Source: Dehalococcoidia bacterium
GTDB taxonomy: Bacteria > Chloroflexota > Dehalococcoidia > Lucifugimonadales > Lucifugimonadaceae
Assembly (NCBI GenBank): GCA_012959765.1
Contig: DUCO01000040.1
Coordinates: 124,001 to 188,000 of the forward strand
Length of the DNA: 64,000 bases
Direction of reading: 5' to 3'
Positions 20,218-53,948 of this stretch are shown here, piece by piece. A program made the position numbers and the translations under genes. Numbering within the stretch: the stretch's first letter is position 1; every line of letters starts with the position of its first letter. Below the pieces are notes generated by a model. The model worked only from the letters and a program-made list of their open reading frames with translations. It searched no databases and had not been told where the DNA came from.

Positions 20218-20796
20218 TTGGAACTCAAAAGCCCGACATCGTTTGAAATTCGCACGCCGATGATGATTGTGCTGCTACTGGCACTGATGGTAGTTGTTAC
20301 CGGTGCATGCGGATCGGGCGATGCAGAAGAAGTAGCGTTTCAACAGATCAGCGATCCCGGCCAGACGTTGAGCATCGACGATCTGCTGGCCACTCCGTAC
20401 AAAGAAGTAAACGACCACTCCACAGAAGGACTCCCCGGCGCTTCGTATGTAAGTTTTGGGTTCTTCAAGGTCAGTGGCGGTGATCCCTACGACTACGAGG
20501 TTCGGTTCTACGAATCGCACCAGGCAGCAGTTGATCTTGGAACAGCGATGGCGATGGAAGGCACGGGTCCAGACGCGATACTCAGCGAGGACGATGCAAC
20601 GTACAAGGCGGGTATTAAGGATCGCCGCACGATCATCGGTGGTGGAGTTGGCGGTGGTGCTCGTAGTGGCATCGGCCCCAAGTTCGCAAGCTACGCTATT
20701 TTCGGAAATATCGTGATGTTGTGCCAGGGATCGGAACCGGATCAATCGCTTGAACGATGTGGTTTGCTGGCGAGCGCGCTGGTCCCGAATGAGTAA
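20218..20796 (+). CDS. Uncharacterised lipoprotein, array member 1
   Basis: Lipobox VVTGAC; YEVRFYESHQAAVDLGTAMA, IKDRRTIIGGG, FGNIVMLCQG-X-C. Confidence 0.75.
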   Translation: MELKSPTSFEIRTPMMIVLLLALMVVVTGACGSGDAEEVAFQQISDPGQTLSIDDLLATPYKEVNDHSTEGLPGASYVSFGFFKVSGGDPYDYEVRFYESHQAAVDLGTAMAMEGTGPDAILSEDDATYKAGIKDRRTIIGGGVGGGARSGIGPKFASYAIFGNIVMLCQGSEPDQSLERCGLLASALVPNE

Positions 20797-21352
20797 ATTT
20801 CAATCGCGGGGGGTTCTCTATTTATCCCTGTTTTCGCTTGTATTGCTCATGGCTATTACTGCGTGCGGTTCTTCCTCATCTGGCAGTTCTTCGGCGGCTT
20901 CACTGGTTAAGGTTTCGGATTTCGAACGCACGTTGTCGATTGCCGATGTCGAAGCGATCGGTTGGAAGCGCGGCAAAACGTACGACGTTGAAGGGCTCGA
21001 TGGTGCGGAAGCTGCTTACGTCGGATTCTGGTCTTTGCCCAACATTGGTTCATTGAACTATGAAATTCGTGTTTATCCGAGTCACGAAATCGCTGTCGAG
21101 CTGGGAACTCCATTTGCGGAAGATGCGGCAGGGGTAGGCGCATCGCTCAACGCTGATGAGTCGATGTGGGGCGAAGGCGTTCGGGATAGAAGAGTGATCG
21201 TTGGTGGAGGATCTCGAGGAAGTCAGAACCCTCGTTACGGCGATTTCGTAATACTAGGCAACCTGGTGATTTTGTGTGAAGGGCGAACTTCGGAGCATTC
21301 ACTCGACCAATGTGCACCTTTCGTCGCGCTTCTTCGAGGAGAAGGCGCATAA
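20789..21352 (+). CDS. Uncharacterised lipoprotein, array member 2
   Basis: Lipobox AITAC; YEIRVYPSHEIAVELGTPFAE, VRDRRVIVGGG, LGNLVILCEG...C; ATG overlaps the stop region of member 1. Confidence 0.75.
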   Translation: MSKFQSRGVLYLSLFSLVLLMAITACGSSSSGSSSAASLVKVSDFERTLSIADVEAIGWKRGKTYDVEGLDGAEAAYVGFWSLPNIGSLNYEIRVYPSHEIAVELGTPFAEDAAGVGASLNADESMWGEGVRDRRVIVGGGSRGSQNPRYGDFVILGNLVILCEGRTSEHSLDQCAPFVALLRGEGA

Positions 21353-21510
21353 TTACAGCGTTAGGCGTCAGTGATCACTCTCTCTAATTTTTCAGGTGGA
21401 CAGATTGGTGACTGACGAGTTGCAGAAGCGTATATTTGGCGTATTCCGTTACACGCTTCGGCCCGATCGCTGTACTACGACGGGTATCGAACTACGAAAG
21501 GGGGCTAGTT

Positions 21511-22089
21511 ATGAAACAAGTAAGCAGTGGCAAGGCACGCCTGCTGGTACTGATTATCGCGATAGCATCGCTATCTATAGCTGCTGTGGCATGCGCTAGT
21601 GATTCCGCGGATAGTGTTGGAGCCGCACCAGACGGTCCGATCGCAAAGATTGACGCCACTGAACGCATCTACACAGCCGACGACATCAAAAACACGGAGT
21701 TCTTCAAACACGATGACGACTACGATGTTGAAGGGCTCGAAGGCGCAGTAGCGGCCCTCTACGGCTTCTACGGATCTGATCCTTACAACCGGCTTGAGTA
21801 CGAAGCACGCTTCTACGCCGATCACGCGGCAGCTATCTCTATAGGCGCCAGCTGGGCGGATGAAGCTACAGGCGCTGATGCTGTTTTGCTCAAAGACGTT
21901 CAGCGCTGGGATGAGGGAATTTCTGATCGTCGCCAGTGTGCAGGAAACGGTGGGCATCACTCAGGCAAATGCGATAACCCCAAATACTTCGACTACGTTG
22001 TAGTGGGAAACATGATTCTGATGTGCCAGGGTAAAGACTCACCGACTTCAATTCAGGCCTGTGCCGATCTGATGGCAGTGGTGCAATAA
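21511..22089 (+). CDS. Uncharacterised lipoprotein, array member 3
   Basis: Lipobox AAVAC; YEARFYADHAAAISIGASWADEATGADAV, ISDRRQC, VGNMILMCQG...C; RBS-like GAAAGGGGG before 21511. Confidence 0.78.
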   Translation: MKQVSSGKARLLVLIIAIASLSIAAVACASDSADSVGAAPDGPIAKIDATERIYTADDIKNTEFFKHDDDYDVEGLEGAVAALYGFYGSDPYNRLEYEARFYADHAAAISIGASWADEATGADAVLLKDVQRWDEGISDRRQCAGNGGHHSGKCDNPKYFDYVVVGNMILMCQGKDSPTSIQACADLMAVVQ

Positions 22090-22659
22090 ATGCTGACAAA
22101 TTCGATTTGGGCTGAAAAGAGAACTTTGCTGGTTCTCGTTACAGCTGTGTTGATGGCGACGGTTGCTGCTGCATGCGGCAGCGATTCAGGCGCAAGCGGT
22201 GGATCGGCAGTTGCCAGGGTGATTGCAAGCGAACGTATCTACACGCTCGAAGATTTCGAAGCGCTCCGGCCTTCAGGTGTTAAAACTGTGAAGGATTACG
22301 ACACTGAAGATTTACCAGCGGCTTTGGACGTGGTGCAGGCTGTTTTCAATCAGTTGGCTTACGAGGTCAGGTTCTACTCTTCTCATGCCGACGCTGTAGC
22401 TGAGGGAACGGTATACGCCGAATCGATTACCGGCGAGGACGCTGTGGTAACGGGTGACGAGGTTCTGTGGGAAGAGGGCGAACGTGACCGCAGAAAGTGC
22501 AGTCGAGCCGCTCAGACGCCCCACTCCAGTTGTTCGTACTCTGCTCGTTATCTCGAATACGTAATCCGAGGAAACATGATCCTGTTCTGTGAGGGTGACG
22601 AATCACCGGATGCATTCGAAAACTGCGAGAATCTGCTGACACTCCTTGAGCCGGCATAA
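22090..22659 (+). CDS. Uncharacterised lipoprotein, array member 4
   Basis: Lipobox VAAAC; YEVRFYSSHADAVAEGTVYAESITGEDAV, ERDRRKC, RGNMILFCEG...C; starts immediately after stop of member 3. Confidence 0.78.
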   Translation: MLTNSIWAEKRTLLVLVTAVLMATVAAACGSDSGASGGSAVARVIASERIYTLEDFEALRPSGVKTVKDYDTEDLPAALDVVQAVFNQLAYEVRFYSSHADAVAEGTVYAESITGEDAVVTGDEVLWEEGERDRRKCSRAAQTPHSSCSYSARYLEYVIRGNMILFCEGDESPDAFENCENLLTLLEPA

Positions 22660-22683
22660 ACGCTCTTGCTGAACAAATAAAAA

Positions 22684-22711
22684 GCCGACGAACGTGTTCG
22701 TCGGCTTTTTT
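22684..22711. terminator. Bidirectional Rho-independent terminator
   Basis: AAAAA-GCCGACGAAC-GT-GTTCGTCGGC-TTTTTT between convergent genes. Confidence 0.9.
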
Positions 22712-22738
22712 GATTAACGAGTTATAAACCGTTCTGCT

Positions 22739-23308
22739 TTATTCGGGCAGGGCGTCGATCAAAGCTTCACATGTCGAAAGCTGGCGTTCACAGAGCATGA
22801 TCGTGTTACCAGCAACGGCGTAGGCGGGGTAGAGGTTCACAACAGGAATCAGCGGGTCTCTCTGGCCTGCGGTGCGGGCTATGATCGTCTCAGCTGGCTC
22901 TACGCCGAACTCAACGGCAGCCTCATGCGATTCGTAGAAGCGGACTTCGATATCACGCTGCTGAAAGAAGCCGTACCAAATATCGGTTGTGCCTGGAACG
23001 GTCTCAACACCGAACTGTCGGTTCGTTTTGAAGCCAACGGCTTTCAGGTCTTCGATCGCGTAAAAGGCATCTGCTTTTGTCGTCAGCCTCAGTCCCTCTT
23101 CATCGAGGACAGCGTCCTCTGAGGCCTGCGGATCGTCCGATGAACCGCACCCGGCCATGGCGGTGAGAAGTGCGAATGCCAGAACCACAAATATGGTTGC
23201 TACTAATTTATTGGAGATCCAGAAATATTTATGGATGACTCGGACCAATTTCTGAATTCCAATCTGCTGATGTTCGGGCGTTGCGTTGGCCGGAAGCATA
23301 TCGTACAC
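22739..23308 (-). CDS. Uncharacterised lipoprotein, array member 5 (convergent)
   Basis: Lipobox TAMAGC; IEVRFYESHEAAVEFGVEPAE, VAGNTIMLCERQLSTCEALIDALPE. Confidence 0.72.
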   Translation of the reverse strand: MYDMLPANATPEHQQIGIQKLVRVIHKYFWISNKLVATIFVVLAFALLTAMAGCGSSDDPQASEDAVLDEEGLRLTTKADAFYAIEDLKAVGFKTNRQFGVETVPGTTDIWYGFFQQRDIEVRFYESHEAAVEFGVEPAETIIARTAGQRDPLIPVVNLYPAYAVAGNTIMLCERQLSTCEALIDALPE

Positions 23309-31184: not shown

Positions 31185-31320
31185 GCTAGAGTTCAGGCTC
31201 GATAATTTCGAGCACCTCTTTGATGTCGATGTCTGTCAGCTTCTGAGTTCTGCCGCTCGGCCACAGAATCTCGACTTCTTGGATCTCGTCGTGATCGCCA
31301 ATTCCATCGGTACCTCGATT
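31185..31320 (-). pseudogene. Remnant of an ASPIC/UnbV-domain (CRTAC1-like) gene
   Basis: Minus-strand translation NRGTDGIGDHDEIQEVEILWPSGRTQKLTDIDIKEVLEIIEPEL*, similar to the C-terminus of 45167..48388; stop immediately upstream in frame. Confidence 0.7.
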
Positions 31321-41054: not shown

Positions 41055-41217
41055 CCAACTCAGCGCGACCCCGTCAGATCTCTCGGCGGCACTCGGGAAA
41101 TCGGTGATTTGCAGATGGACGTTGTGGGGAGTGTTGTGTCTCGATGTGGCGCTTAACGCACGCGCGTTCTCCCACCAGATCCTTCGACTCCGCAGGGCTT
41201 CGCTCAGGAAATGGGTT
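41055..41217 (+). repeat. Two direct copies of the dispersed repeat (D1, D2)
   Basis: 41055..41104 GCCAACTCAGCGCGACCCCGTCAGATCTCTCGGCGGCACTCGGGAAATCGG and 41161..41217 CCCACCAGATCCTTCGACTCCGCAGGGCTTCGCTCAGGAAATGGG. Confidence 0.6.
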
Positions 41218-41259
41218 GGATGCTGTGTGCTTGTCGGCAGTTCGCAGTGTGCAGCCGGT

Positions 41260-42002
41260 AAATAGCAAATACACCGAATCCTGGTTTATCACGCCCTTTG
41301 CCATGAACGTGTTGATTACGCCGATTCCGGTGGATTCCGCGAATTTTCGCAACTCGCCAGATGCTCCCAACCTGATGGTTCCGTTGCCCGCGAGGATCAC
41401 AGGACTTTTTGCCTGGCGAATCACCTGAAGAGCATCGAAAATTACTTCTTGATCCGGCACGGGGTGAGTTGGTCGGGACTTTCTGATCGGGTCAAGATCC
41501 TCAGCCGGGGCATCTGCAACGTCTTCTGGCAGCTCGATGTGGCAGGCGCCGGGTTTCCTCGGCGGCGGCAAGCTTGAACGCTTTGTATACGACTTCAGGC
41601 ACGTTGCGCGGGCTGAGAATTGTTGAAGCCCACTTCGTTATCGGCTTGAACATGCCCACAACGTCCATCGCCTGATGGCTTTCTTTGTGCCACCGTTCGG
41701 TTCCGGCCTAACCTGTGATTGCAATGAGTGGAACACGGTCCATGTTGGCCTCGACGACACCAGTGACGAGGTTGGCGGCTCCGGGTCCGAGGGGGTTCCA
41801 AGGCACACTCCGGGCTCTCCGGTGAGACGACCGTGGCCTCGGCCATGAACGCCGCGCCCTGCTCGTGGCGAGTCAGGATGAAGTCGATCGAAGAGGCGTC
41901 AAGCGCCATCATCAGCGCTGCATTTTCTTCCCCCGGCACGCCAAATACGCGCGTTACGCCTTCGTTTTCAAGACACTGTACGAACAGTTCTGCCGCGTTC
42001 AA
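41260..42002 (-). pseudogene. Acetolactate-synthase-like (TPP-binding) pseudogene
   Basis: [56 protein letters not shown] then frameshift; [44 protein letters not shown] (TAG at 41708..41710); SPVILAGNGTIRLGASGELRKFAESTGIGVINTFMAKG; no C-terminal third. Confidence 0.85.
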
Positions 42003-45032: not shown

Positions 45033-45167
45033 ATGCCTGATTGGTGGCTTGAAGCGACTCTGCCGACCGTCATTTTTGGCGGGCTTTTCCTGTTGTGGGT
45101 GCTGATTCCACCTCCTGAAGGTGAATCGGATTTCGCAAGCCGCTTGCGCGATAGGTTCCGCAAATAA
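45033..45167 (+). CDS. 44-aa membrane micro-ORF (not in supplied ORF track)
   Basis: MPDWWLEATLPTVIFGGLFLLWVLIPPPEGESDFASRLRDRFRK*; TAATG overlap with next start. Confidence 0.6.
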   Translation: MPDWWLEATLPTVIFGGLFLLWVLIPPPEGESDFASRLRDRFRK

Positions 45168-48100
45168 TGTTTGCAACCGCAGATCGCAAACGACTCGTCG
45201 TCGGGCTGATGCTTCTGGTCATAATCATGGGCATGTTTCTGGCGTTCAACCGCCTGCCCAAGATCGGCATCGTCGGCGAAGACCTCGATGCTGTCACTTC
45301 GCCAACCAGCCAGTGTTTTCAGGGATTTTGTATCGAACGAGACCCCGGCGTCAGCTTCACGACTCGCTGGATAAAGTTCTCGATCACATACCTGCGACTC
45401 GTAACCGTCGGCATGACTTTCGCCTTCGTTACTGCTGGACTGGCCGAGGCGTTCCTGTTTTCTAAATCCATCGGCAAAGGACTGCCCACTGCCGGAGTGT
45501 TTAGACGAACTGTGCAGGGAGCCGCGGCAGGCGGAGTGATGAACCTGTGTTCTGCCTGCATCGTTCCGGTGTCATCTGCGTTCCACAAGCGAGCCAGCAT
45601 CGAGGGCGCTGTGGCGATGGTGCAGGGGTCGACCACGCTAAACATCCCAGCACTGGCGATGGTGTTTTTCGTGTTCAGTCCGGTGCTCGGCTTCAGCAGG
45701 TTAATACTGGCTATCGTGGGTGCACTGATCATCGGGCCGATCGTTGTTTACAGCGTCAGACGTGATCGTGAGAAGCCGATCGAAATACCTGACACCTATC
45801 AGGATCCTGCCGATCTGGTTGGCTGGAAAGAGGCGGTTGTCCCGGCGTTCAGGCACTGGGCGAAAGCCTCTTTTGGTTATGCCAGACGGCTCGCCCCGAT
45901 CATGATTCTCGCCGGATTTGGGAGCGGACTTGCTATCCAGTGGCTCAGCCCAGAGGTGGTCGCTACGTATCTCGGAAATGACGTTCGCGGCATCCTGCTG
46001 GCAGCCACGTTCGGGTTATTGATCAACGTTCCCCTGTTATTTGAAATTCCGCTGGTCGCACTGCTGTTGCTTTTGGGGATGGGCACTGCGCCGGCTGCAA
46101 CATTGCTGTTCGCTGCCGCTGCTGGTGGTCCTGTTACTTTCTGGGGTCTGGCGAAGATCATGCCTCGAAAAGCGCTTGCCACTTTCGCTACGGCTACATG
46201 GGCCGTGGGTGCGTTGGGTGGATTGCTGGTGCTGCTTGGGGGTGCGTACTTCTGGGAAGATGCGGGCTTGAGTGATCGTGTGGCGAAGACTACGGAACAG
46301 CGGACTGTTGACGAGATGTTCCTGGTCTATACTTCCGATCCTTTTCGTTCGAGTGTCTATCCTGGGTTTTCTGATGGGATTCCTGCGAGCGACGAGTTTG
46401 GGCCGTTCCAGAACATTGCATCGTTGATTGGTACTGACGCGTTGATCGAAAACCGTTATCCGGGGGTGGCTATCTTTGATTTTGACCGTGATGGCGATCT
46501 TGATTTCTATGTGACCTCTGGCGAATCGAATGCCGTGTTCCAGATCACCCGGGGCGGACCCAACAAGCTGTTCCGCAACGATGGCGGCAACAGGTTCACA
46601 GAGATGGCAGCAGAGGCGGGAGTTGCCGCCAGCACCCACAACTCGACTGCGGTTGCTGCGTGCGACTTCGACAACGATGGTTACCAGGATCTTTATGTTG
46701 GTGCGCAGGGTCGGATCGGCGACAACCTCGACTATCGTTCGATCGCCCAGAGCCCATCGCTTATACCCGTCATTCAGGATCGCCTGTTCCACAACAACGG
46801 CGATGGCACGTTTACCGACATCACTGCTTCGGCTTTTGCTGGGAGTGTGAACATCCGTTCGGCTGCCAGTATCGCGTGTGGTGATGTCGATAACGACGGC
46901 TACTTAGACATCTACGTTGGTAACAGGGCGGATCAAGATTTCGTCAGGTTCGACACCTCGCGCCACCATGGCCATTTCAACACGTTTTTCCACAACAACG
47001 GCGACATGACATTTTCGGATTTGACCGAGCGTGTGGGGCTGATTTCACCAGAGATCAGGATGCGCGATCTTGACGGCAACCCGATCACTTTCGCTGCCGG
47101 TGGCGGCCGAGTGGAGGGTTTCGATGTCAGCGTGGTAGATGGCAATGGCAACGTAGTTGGTAATCCGGCGGGCCAAACGTGGGCGACGCTAATGTTCGAC
47201 CACGATGCCGATGGTGACCTTGATCTTTGGGTGGGCGACGATGGCGATCGGCTAAAGGTTTATCGCAACGATTCTGGTTCCGAAGGCATTTCATTCACGT
47301 CGATAGAGGAACAGCTTGGCATCGACCAGATGGGCCAGTGGATGGGCTTTGCGCTGGGTGATTACGACGGTGACTCCGACCTCGATGTGTTCGTAACCAA
47401 CATGGGTTTCCACCCGCTGGAACGTCCGTGGCCGGGTGTGCCTTCTGCCGATTGTGCTTATTACCACTCAACCGAAACTGGCACCTGTTTCCACGCCCTG
47501 ATCGAAAACCGTGTGAACGAGGGAAGCGATCCTGATCGCAATGGAGCGTTCGTGTTCGTGACGGGCGAAACTGTTGTGACGGCGAGTGAGGTGTTGCCTC
47601 CCACTTCGATAAGAGCCGATTTCGAAGGCGCGAAACAACTTACTGGCCTTGAGGCTTACGAGTTCGGATTCGGCGCGGTGTTCTTCGATATGGACAATGA
47701 TGCTGACCAGGATTTGTACTGGCTCGGCTCGCTGGCGGCTCGTGGCGAAGGCCCGAACGGGGATTTTGCTCCCGGGTTTGGGCGCATGTTGCAGAACGAC
47801 GGGAGCGGAGCATTCAAGGACGTCACGGTTGAATCACGGATGATCGATGCACTTGCGGTCGACTACTCAGTCATCGATCCCGGCGACGACGAATTCAATC
47901 GCTCAAAGCAACGGCTCGGTGCTGAGTTCCACGAGAACGGAAAAGGTGTGGTGGTTGGCGATCTGAATGGTGATGGGTTTATCGACGTGATCGGCACTAA
48001 CAGCAATGGCGAAACCTTCACGGCCGACGGCGAACGTGCGGTCGTAGGCGGACCGTTGTTCGTGTGGATAAATTCTGGCGGTGACAACCACTGGATATCA

Positions 48101-48388
48101 TTCAGGCTCAAGGGGCGCATGGCTGTCGATGGCAGCGGTTCGAACGCAGACGCCATTGGCGCAAAGATAACTGTTACTTATCTGGACGACAGCGGCGTTG
48201 AAGTCACCCAGGTGAAAGAGGTTCTGGGATCATCGAGTTTCCTGTCGATGAGTTCGCTAGACGCTCATTTTGGTCTAGGAAATGGCGAATCGGTCGCAGT
48301 CACGATTCGATGGCCGAGCGGATTGACGATGGACATAGCTGATCTCGAGTTGAACCAACTTCACGAGATAACCGAGCCGGCGAGTTAA
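45167..48388 (+). CDS. Fusion: COG0701/DUF318-type permease + FG-GAP/VCBS repeats + ASPIC/UnbV domain
   Basis: N-term GAAAGGVMNLCSACIVPVSSAFHKRASIEGAVAMVQGSTTLNIPAL; middle FDFDRDGDLDFYV, CDFDNDGYQDLYV, GDVDNDGYLDIYV, FDHDADGDLDLWV, GDYDGDSDLDVFV, FDMDNDADQDLYW, GDLNGDGFIDV; C-term VTIRWPSGLTMDIADLELNQLHEI. Confidence 0.9.
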   Translation: MFATADRKRLVVGLMLLVIIMGMFLAFNRLPKIGIVGEDLDAVTSPTSQCFQGFCIERDPGVSFTTRWIKFSITYLRLVTVGMTFAFVTAGLAEAFLFSKSIGKGLPTAGVFRRTVQGAAAGGVMNLCSACIVPVSSAFHKRASIEGAVAMVQGSTTLNIPALAMVFFVFSPVLGFSRLILAIVGALIIGPIVVYSVRRDREKPIEIPDTYQDPADLVGWKEAVVPAFRHWAKASFGYARRLAPIMILAGFGSGLAIQWLSPEVVATYLGNDVRGILLAATFGLLINVPLLFEIPLVALLLLLGMGTAPAATLLFAAAAGGPVTFWGLAKIMPRKALATFATATWAVGALGGLLVLLGGAYFWEDAGLSDRVAKTTEQRTVDEMFLVYTSDPFRSSVYPGFSDGIPASDEFGPFQNIASLIGTDALIENRYPGVAIFDFDRDGDLDFYVTSGESNAVFQITRGGPNKLFRNDGGNRFTEMAAEAGVAASTHNSTAVAACDFDNDGYQDLYVGAQGRIGDNLDYRSIAQSPSLIPVIQDRLFHNNGDGTFTDITASAFAGSVNIRSAASIACGDVDNDGYLDIYVGNRADQDFVRFDTSRHHGHFNTFFHNNGDMTFSDLTERVGLISPEIRMRDLDGNPITFAAGGGRVEGFDVSVVDGNGNVVGNPAGQTWATLMFDHDADGDLDLWVGDDGDRLKVYRNDSGSEGISFTSIEEQLGIDQMGQWMGFALGDYDGDSDLDVFVTNMGFHPLERPWPGVPSADCAYYHSTETGTCFHALIENRVNEGSDPDRNGAFVFVTGETVVTASEVLPPTSIRADFEGAKQLTGLEAYEFGFGAVFFDMDNDADQDLYWLGSLAARGEGPNGDFAPGFGRMLQNDGSGAFKDVTVESRMIDALAVDYSVIDPGDDEFNRSKQRLGAEFHENGKGVVVGDLNGDGFIDVIGTNSNGETFTADGERAVVGGPLFVWINSGGDNHWISFRLKGRMAVDGSGSNADAIGAKITVTYLDDSGVEVTQVKEVLGSSSFLSMSSLDAHFGLGNGESVAVTIRWPSGLTMDIADLELNQLHEITEPAS

Positions 48389-52693: not shown

Positions 52694-53948
52694 TTGCCGA
52701 CGAATCGTTCGAACGAATCGCACAATATCGTGATCATTGGCGCCGGATCAGCAGGTCTGGCGACCAGTTACTTTCTCACCCAGCAACACATCGATCATGT
52801 TGTTCTTGAGCGAGGCGATGTCGGCAATACCTGGGACGTTGAGCGGTGGGACGGCTTTTACCTTGTGAACCCCAACTGGGCGGTTAGGCTTCCGGGGTTT
52901 CACTACGTGGGTACCGAGCCCGAGGGTTATCTTTCGAAGACCGAAACAATCGACTACCTAAAGAATTATGCAAAGCATTTCGGCGCGCCTGTGCGGACAG
53001 GTGTTGATATCGATTCGCTGGAGCGTGAAGCCGATGGTTATTTTCTCACTACTCGTTCCGGTGATGTGATTCGCGCTCCCTGTGTAGTTGTTGCGACCGG
53101 GGCGTTCGGTGTGCCAAAGACGCCTGATTACTCGGCTGATTTAGCCAGTTCGGTCACACAGATTCATTCCGCTGAATACAGGAATCCACAATCGCTTGGG
53201 GGGGGGGGTGCTGGTTGTTGGGTCGGGTCAGTCGGGGGCGCAGATCGCCGAGGAGCTTCTCAACGCTGGAAAGAAGGTGTGGCTGTCGGTCGGGAACGCC
53301 GGTCGTCGCCCACGTCGATATCGAGGGCGTGATTCGTCGTGGTGGAACTACACGATGGGCGGCTTCGACAGGACGATCGAGAATGTCGATTCGATTGACG
53401 ACGCTCGCTACGGTTCGTCGTCCCACACTAGCGGTGCTGCGGGCGGGCACGATATCTACCTGCGTCACATGGCGAAAAATGGCGTCACGCTGGTTGGCCC
53501 GGTGACCGGCGGAAGTGGCGATTCGTTGTCGCTAAGAACCGACCTTGACGAGATCTTGAAAGCCATCGACGCGCACCCCGTAAAGTGGAAACAAAACGTC
53601 GATGCCTATATCGAGAAAAACTGTATTCAGGTTCCGCCTGACAACACGATCGAACCGCCCGATATTTCCGATTGGCCGAAGGGCGATGTTCCCAGCTCGC
53701 TGAATTTAGTTGAGGCCGGTATCAAGAACATCATCTGGTCGACAGGATTCAAGTACAACTTCGACTGGATCAAGCTGCCGATCACAGGTGAACACAACTA
53801 CCCGATTCAGCACCGGGGTGTCACGGAGTATCCGGGGTTGTACTTCATGGGGTTGCAGTGGATGTACGGGTCTAAGTCGGCTCAGTTCATCGGAGTCGGT
53901 GAAGACGCCGAATACGTTGCGGGGCACATCGCAGGGCGGTTCGGTTAG
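52694..53948 (+). pseudogene. Flavin-containing monooxygenase-like gene, frameshifted at an 11-G tract (ORFs 52694..53332 and 53196..53948)
   Basis: IVIIGAGSAGLATSYFLTQQHIDHVVLERGDVGNTW; second frame VLVVGSGQSGAQIAEELLNAGKKVWLSVG; G11 at 53198..53208. Confidence 0.88.
53198..53208. repeat. Homopolymeric G11 tract inside the FMO gene
   Basis: cttGGGGGGGGGGGtgctgg. Confidence 0.95.

Follow-up and report, generated by a model that had tools for sequence, protein, structure and literature searches.

A single gene in the 64-kb stretch of SAR202 DNA analyzed here (the window) encodes a COG0701-type permease joined to a CRTAC1-type propeller, and the best reading of its product, in which we place about even confidence, is a single-chain cell-surface receptor-transporter with an exchangeable ectodomain. 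The domain content, the conservation, the exchange of the outer domain and the linkage to ABC importer genes on which this reading is based are observed, while the topology and fold are predicted. The parts are of known kinds; what is new is their stable pairing together with the exchange of partners. An earlier note on this DNA was aware of no described role for such an architecture, and we likewise found no description of this permease-propeller arrangement in the open-access literature, subscription papers being outside the scope of that search. The gene and its parts are as follows (window coordinates):

45167-48388, + strand: fusion gene of 1073 aa, with an ArsP_1 permease, a seven-motif FG-GAP propeller and a UnbV_ASPIC domain (ORF, Pfam, orthologues)
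45179-45247, + strand: extra N-terminal transmembrane helix, approximately residues 5-27 (model, loop charges, comparison with ordinary COG0701)
45314-45331, + strand: CFQGFC loop, residues 50-55, predicted to lie outside (both Cys invariant in 59/59 subfamily sequences; loop charges)
45410-46231, + strand: ArsP_1/COG0701 permease domain, residues 82-355 (Pfam; AlphaFold pLDDT 86, pTM 0.85)
45545-45568, + strand: LCSACIVP motif, residues 127-134, at the break of re-entrant hairpin 1 (conservation, model; C128 invariant in ordinary COG0701 too)
46037-46057, + strand: LFEIPLV motif, residues 291-297, at the break of re-entrant hairpin 2 (conservation, model; E293 and P295 invariant in ordinary COG0701 too)
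46262-46399, + strand: fast-evolving linker, residues 366-411, 46 residues (dN)
46400-48091, + strand: CRTAC1-type propeller with seven D-x-[DN]-x-D motifs, approximately residues 412-975 (Pfam, motif count, Foldseek)
48152-48364, + strand: UnbV_ASPIC domain, residues 996-1066 (Pfam)

The reading frame opens with ATG and runs through all 1073 codons without an internal stop, exactly as the earlier note had it. The gene is present in a single copy in the 2.6-Mb draft genome, which has no second PF03773 gene. The note had also read a COG0701-like N-terminal half, about seven calcium-type repeats and a C-terminal ASPIC/UnbV domain from the sequence, and profile searches and motif counts agree with all three. 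ArsP_1 (PF03773) matches residues 82-355 with 63.3 bits against a cut-off of 32.3, FG-GAP_3 (PF13517) matches five stretches with 119 bits, above its curated cut-off, and UnbV_ASPIC (PF07593) matches residues 996-1066 with 57.3 bits against a cut-off of 23.4. The motif D-x-[DN]-x-D-[GAS]-x-x-D occurs exactly seven times, starting at residues 438, 500, 573, 678, 732, 841 and 932, compared to an average of 0.04 and at most 2 in 2000 shuffles of the ectodomain.

That the window genome is a draft of 49 contigs would favor an assembly chimera, or two adjacent genes misread as one, but the same junction is found in many independent assemblies and both halves are under purifying selection, and we give this explanation practically no weight. 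Within the genus, the intact fusion recurs in other genomes, essentially full length and with 77-81% identity, and an 81%-identical full-length orthologue is present in the PacBio-closed genome of the cultured SAR202 isolate Ca. Lucifugimonas marina JH1073 (CP046147.1). The dN/dS against close congeners is ∼0.03-0.06 in both halves, showing strong purifying selection, and GC content does not shift at the permease/ectodomain junction. Since the orthologue is full length in the closed JH1073 genome, the fusion is not a chimera, and misassembly at the junction, the possibility raised against it in the earlier note, is ruled out for the family, as independent assemblies and the closed genome both contain orthologues. 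A viral or mobile origin was also rejected: one scan of viral contigs with the permease gave no relative, and no tRNA or Rfam RNA was found within the 64-kb window.

A scan with the permease half of a genome collection of 84,980 species, using a pattern specific to the subfamily that other COG0701 fusions may escape, gave 79 loci, in which 70 of the 81 subfamily permeases are fused. The two halves had been described in the earlier note as normally separate; within this SAR202 permease subfamily fusion is instead the usual state and not a one-off, with the ectodomain repeatedly exchanged. Unfused stand-alone permeases of the same subfamily do occur (L071, L073, L081, L083, L111 and L084). Nearly all loci are labeled Chloroflexota, Dehalococcoidia or SAR202. 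The outlying labels are Spirochaetia/Spirochaetaceae (L110, L113, L118), Acidimicrobiia (L106), Acidobacteria (L100), Deltaproteobacteria (L108), Acidiferrobacteraceae (L076) and Alphaproteobacteria (L046), and these bins may represent transfers or binning errors. The three Spirochaetia-labeled fusions have a distinct ectodomain clade, which suggests transfer out of SAR202. The subfamily is present in 60 of 250 genomes of the order, and a 400-genome sample of the phylum added only one further family, of another class, the remaining matches being ordinary COG0701.

We modeled residues 1-400 with AlphaFold from 68 sequences (mean pLDDT 86, pTM 0.85), the permease half of an earlier full-length model from 20 sequences (mean pLDDT 65.7) being poor and unusable. 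In the model, the permease helices divide into residues 64-197 and 220-362, halves that resemble each other; in both, two short helices form a broken pair, around CSAC in one half and around FEIP in the other. By their charges, the N-terminus and residues 98-112, 139-146 and 330-337 are assigned to the inside and the CFQGFC loop to the outside, and the 196-222 loop is rich in both charges. From the helix list and these charges we predict seven helices and two re-entrant hairpins arranged in inverted halves, with the N-terminus inside and the C-terminus outside, the latter because the last helix runs outward and the loop charges follow the positive-inside pattern. Membrane transport or anchoring coupled to an extracytoplasmic propeller, as proposed in the earlier note, is therefore supported as a prediction by the topology analysis together with the conservation pattern; the glycan or protein ligand that the note suggested is speculative. 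No solved homologue of the permease was found by sequence or fold (best Foldseek E value, 0.13), and its weak fold resemblance to YdaH, SbtA and NTCP-type transporters is not relied on here. The propeller half matches murine CRTAC1 best (9etn; E value of 1.9e-24, TM score by target of 0.71), with integrin alpha chains as the next structural matches, and its motifs and fold suggest that it binds calcium.

Compared to known systems, the permease resembles COG0701/ArsP_1 proteins (Campylobacter jejuni ArsP, NCBIfam SaoE, SO_0444) in scoring above the Pfam cut-off and in sharing the invariant first Cys of the C-S motif, the E-x-P motif and two pseudo-symmetric halves. It falls, however, far below the NCBIfam equivalog cut-offs for SaoE (25.1 bits against 325) and SO_0444 (21.8 bits against 300), and it differs from ordinary COG0701 in having CSAC instead of CSC, an extra N-terminal helix, the CFQGFC loop and a large C-terminal domain predicted to be extracellular. 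The outer half is like CRTAC1 and bacterial ASPIC-UnbV proteins in sequence and fold, with an FG-GAP propeller followed by ASPIC, but the standalone proteins carry their own N-terminal signal or anchor, and here the permease takes that place. The repeat type and calcium motif are also those of integrin alpha chains and of bacterial integrin-type propellers (PMC3192720), the bacterial examples described there having no membrane segment. An integrin alpha chain has a propeller followed by legs and one transmembrane helix, whereas the fusion has neither legs nor a beta subunit, starts with a polytopic permease and ends with ASPIC.

The fusion state is labile in the sequences compared: fused and standalone ectodomains interleave, and partner class switches 16 times on the permease tree, the minimum being 8. 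The tree of 79 ectodomains needs 13 changes between the fused and standalone states, at least 8 of them forced by starred branches; both trees are from quick searches with some long branches, making these counts approximate. Individual pairs show the same exchange. The tandem genes of L068 are 90% identical in the permease and 51% in the ectodomain, the L057 and window proteins share 67% identity in the permease and 29% in the ectodomain, and the ectodomain of the fused L055 has 74% identity to the standalone L157. In L102, permease and CRTAC1 are separate genes 4 bp apart. Other relatives carry different partners: a beta-helix-like repeat in L074 (read from the sequence by eye, with no Pfam hit), PD40, TIG, propeller and ASPIC domains in L109, a 150-aa domain of no recognized family in L100 and L106, which had no match in Pfam or the PDB, and DUF3179 followed by a sortase gene in L175:

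L175, 505-3523, + strand: permease of the same subfamily fused to DUF3179, with a sortase gene after it

Retention of the transporter half and exchange of the outer half among relatives suggest that the protein is a modular surface receptor-transporter.

Among the standalone CRTAC1 relatives, lipobox-like N-termini are common (10/25 by a strict pattern and several more by eye), others have one hydrophobic N-terminal helix, and some of the start codons are uncertain. Such N-termini are consistent with an outside location. SAR202 cells look monoderm by transmission electron microscopy (PMC10444878), and lipobox or permease would then be alternative ways to hold a CRTAC1 domain on the surface. 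The window also contains what is left of a standalone copy:

31189-31311, - strand: ∼41-aa remnant (ASPIC end) of a standalone CRTAC1 paralogue, deleted in the window genome

The corresponding site holds an undamaged gene for 722 aa in L027 and a stop-interrupted copy in JH1073 (L024); the genus of the window appears to be losing its standalone copy.

In this genus, the fusion sits in a catabolic island whose genes include UxuA-like ones and, as named by eye, sulfatase, enolase-superfamily and SMP-30-like ones. With them is a convergent gene of the MFS efflux type, conserved among the loci of the genus. Genes for SBP_bac_5-type ABC importers lie within 1 kb at 10 of the 40 loci with full flanks, where ∼1.4% would be expected from SBP gene density in nine genomes, and counting DppB and DppC raises the number to 13/40. 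The loci with importers are related and represent about six separate arrangements; even a count of 6/30 would give a P of ∼4e-6, rising to 4e-5 if the highest density is taken. At four loci from sponge-type bins, the genes nearby instead resemble those of MalFG-type importers. Gene neighbors differ between lineages, with ABC importers near only about a third of loci, and the neighborhood as annotated is more suggestive of nutrient handling than of a resistance island.

Elsewhere in the window, five neighboring ∼180-aa paralogues with lipoprotein-like N-termini (20260-23299; four on the + strand, one on the - strand) have relatives that are arrayed in a similar way close to the fusion in L029 and L030. 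A thiamine-diphosphate acetolactate-synthase-like gene (41074-42002, - strand) and a flavin monooxygenase-like gene (52694-53948, + strand) both look, by eye, broken into short ORFs.

The permease could be only a multi-helix anchor or display scaffold for diverse surface domains, with transport lost or irrelevant, a possibility that we regard as doubtful but that has to be weighed. The outer domains are mutually unrelated (propeller, beta-helix, DUF3179), and the lipobox-like or single-helix anchors of close standalone CRTAC1 relatives make anchors look interchangeable. The conservation of the permease is, however, unlike that of a mere anchor. None of the 59 subfamily sequences examined lacks C50, C55, C128, C131 or E293, and C128 and E293 are also present in 9/9 ordinary COG0701 proteins; C128, P134, P244, G283, E293 and P295 are invariant across the subfamily and these nine members, short permeases in which the alignment shows no counterpart of the CFQGFC loop cysteines. 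The permease also evolves more slowly than the ectodomain, with dN values of 0.07-0.10 and 0.15-0.18, respectively, and a 1.5- to 2.5-fold difference in every congeneric pair, the 46-residue linker (0.32-0.44) being the sole fast-evolving part of the protein. With its transport motifs intact throughout these 59 sequences and a rate of change below that of the propeller, the permease is probably a working transporter, and stand-alone genes for unfused permeases of the same subfamily also speak against an anchor. On the side of the anchor is also a pair of tandem fusions (L040:5446-11972, - strand) with degenerate permeases that have lost CSAC and FEIP while keeping CFQGFC and the propeller. An anchor-only form would thus be viable, and the pair may serve as a natural transport-dead control.

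We consider it unlikely that the protein exports trivalent organoarsenicals or some other soft metal(loid) in the manner of ArsP, with the propeller as a secondary addition. The characterized relative, ArsP of Campylobacter, does export MAs(III) and roxarsone (PMC6205960), and the window genome, lacking any other PF03773 gene, encodes arsenite methyltransferase (ArsM)-like genes and Acr3. Across 250 genomes of the order, however, there is no association between the permease and ArsM, which is present in 39/60 permease-bearing and 107/190 permease-free genomes (Fisher P = 0.29), and fusions occur in G070, G082 and G092, which have neither an ArsM above the cut-off nor Acr3. The genes flanking the fusion in the window include none recognized as ars. 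The window genus may therefore use the protein on organoarsenicals, but such a role leaves the family as a whole unexplained. It is far less probable still that the protein has nothing to do with transport and acts as a surface adhesin or integrin-like receptor; the structural matches to integrin alpha chains after CRTAC1 fit this reading, but it leaves the conserved transport motifs and the linkage to importer genes unexplained.

The receptor-transporter that we favor would work as follows. An inverted-repeat COG0701 permease, with seven helices and two re-entrant hairpins bearing CSAC and FEIP, would sit in the single SAR202 membrane, and its C-terminus is predicted to emerge outside, bearing a CRTAC1-like and probably calcium-stabilized propeller. 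The propeller may set the specificity of the transporter by binding or positioning a ligand where the permease opens, and the permease would move thiol-reactive or small organic cargo through its invariant hairpin Cys and Glu. Swapping the outer domain would then alter specificity while leaving the transport core unchanged.

Few COG0701 permeases have been characterized, almost nothing was found on bacterial ASPIC/UnbV proteins in the literature searched, and neither half has a well-understood role in bacteria. Their recurrent fusion, in which the outer domain is exchangeable, links the two families and indicates the probable membrane side of the propeller, and a cultured organism that carries the fusion provides a test case. 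More tentatively, and well short of an even chance, SAR202 may have a family of variable-ectodomain transporters in which surface-binding domains are recombined onto one permease core, giving one engine for many extracellular ligands as part of the expansion of the clade on diverse dissolved organic matter. If the outer domain does set specificity, this would be an unusual design for a single-polypeptide transporter and would bear on how SAR202 bacteria sample dissolved organic matter.
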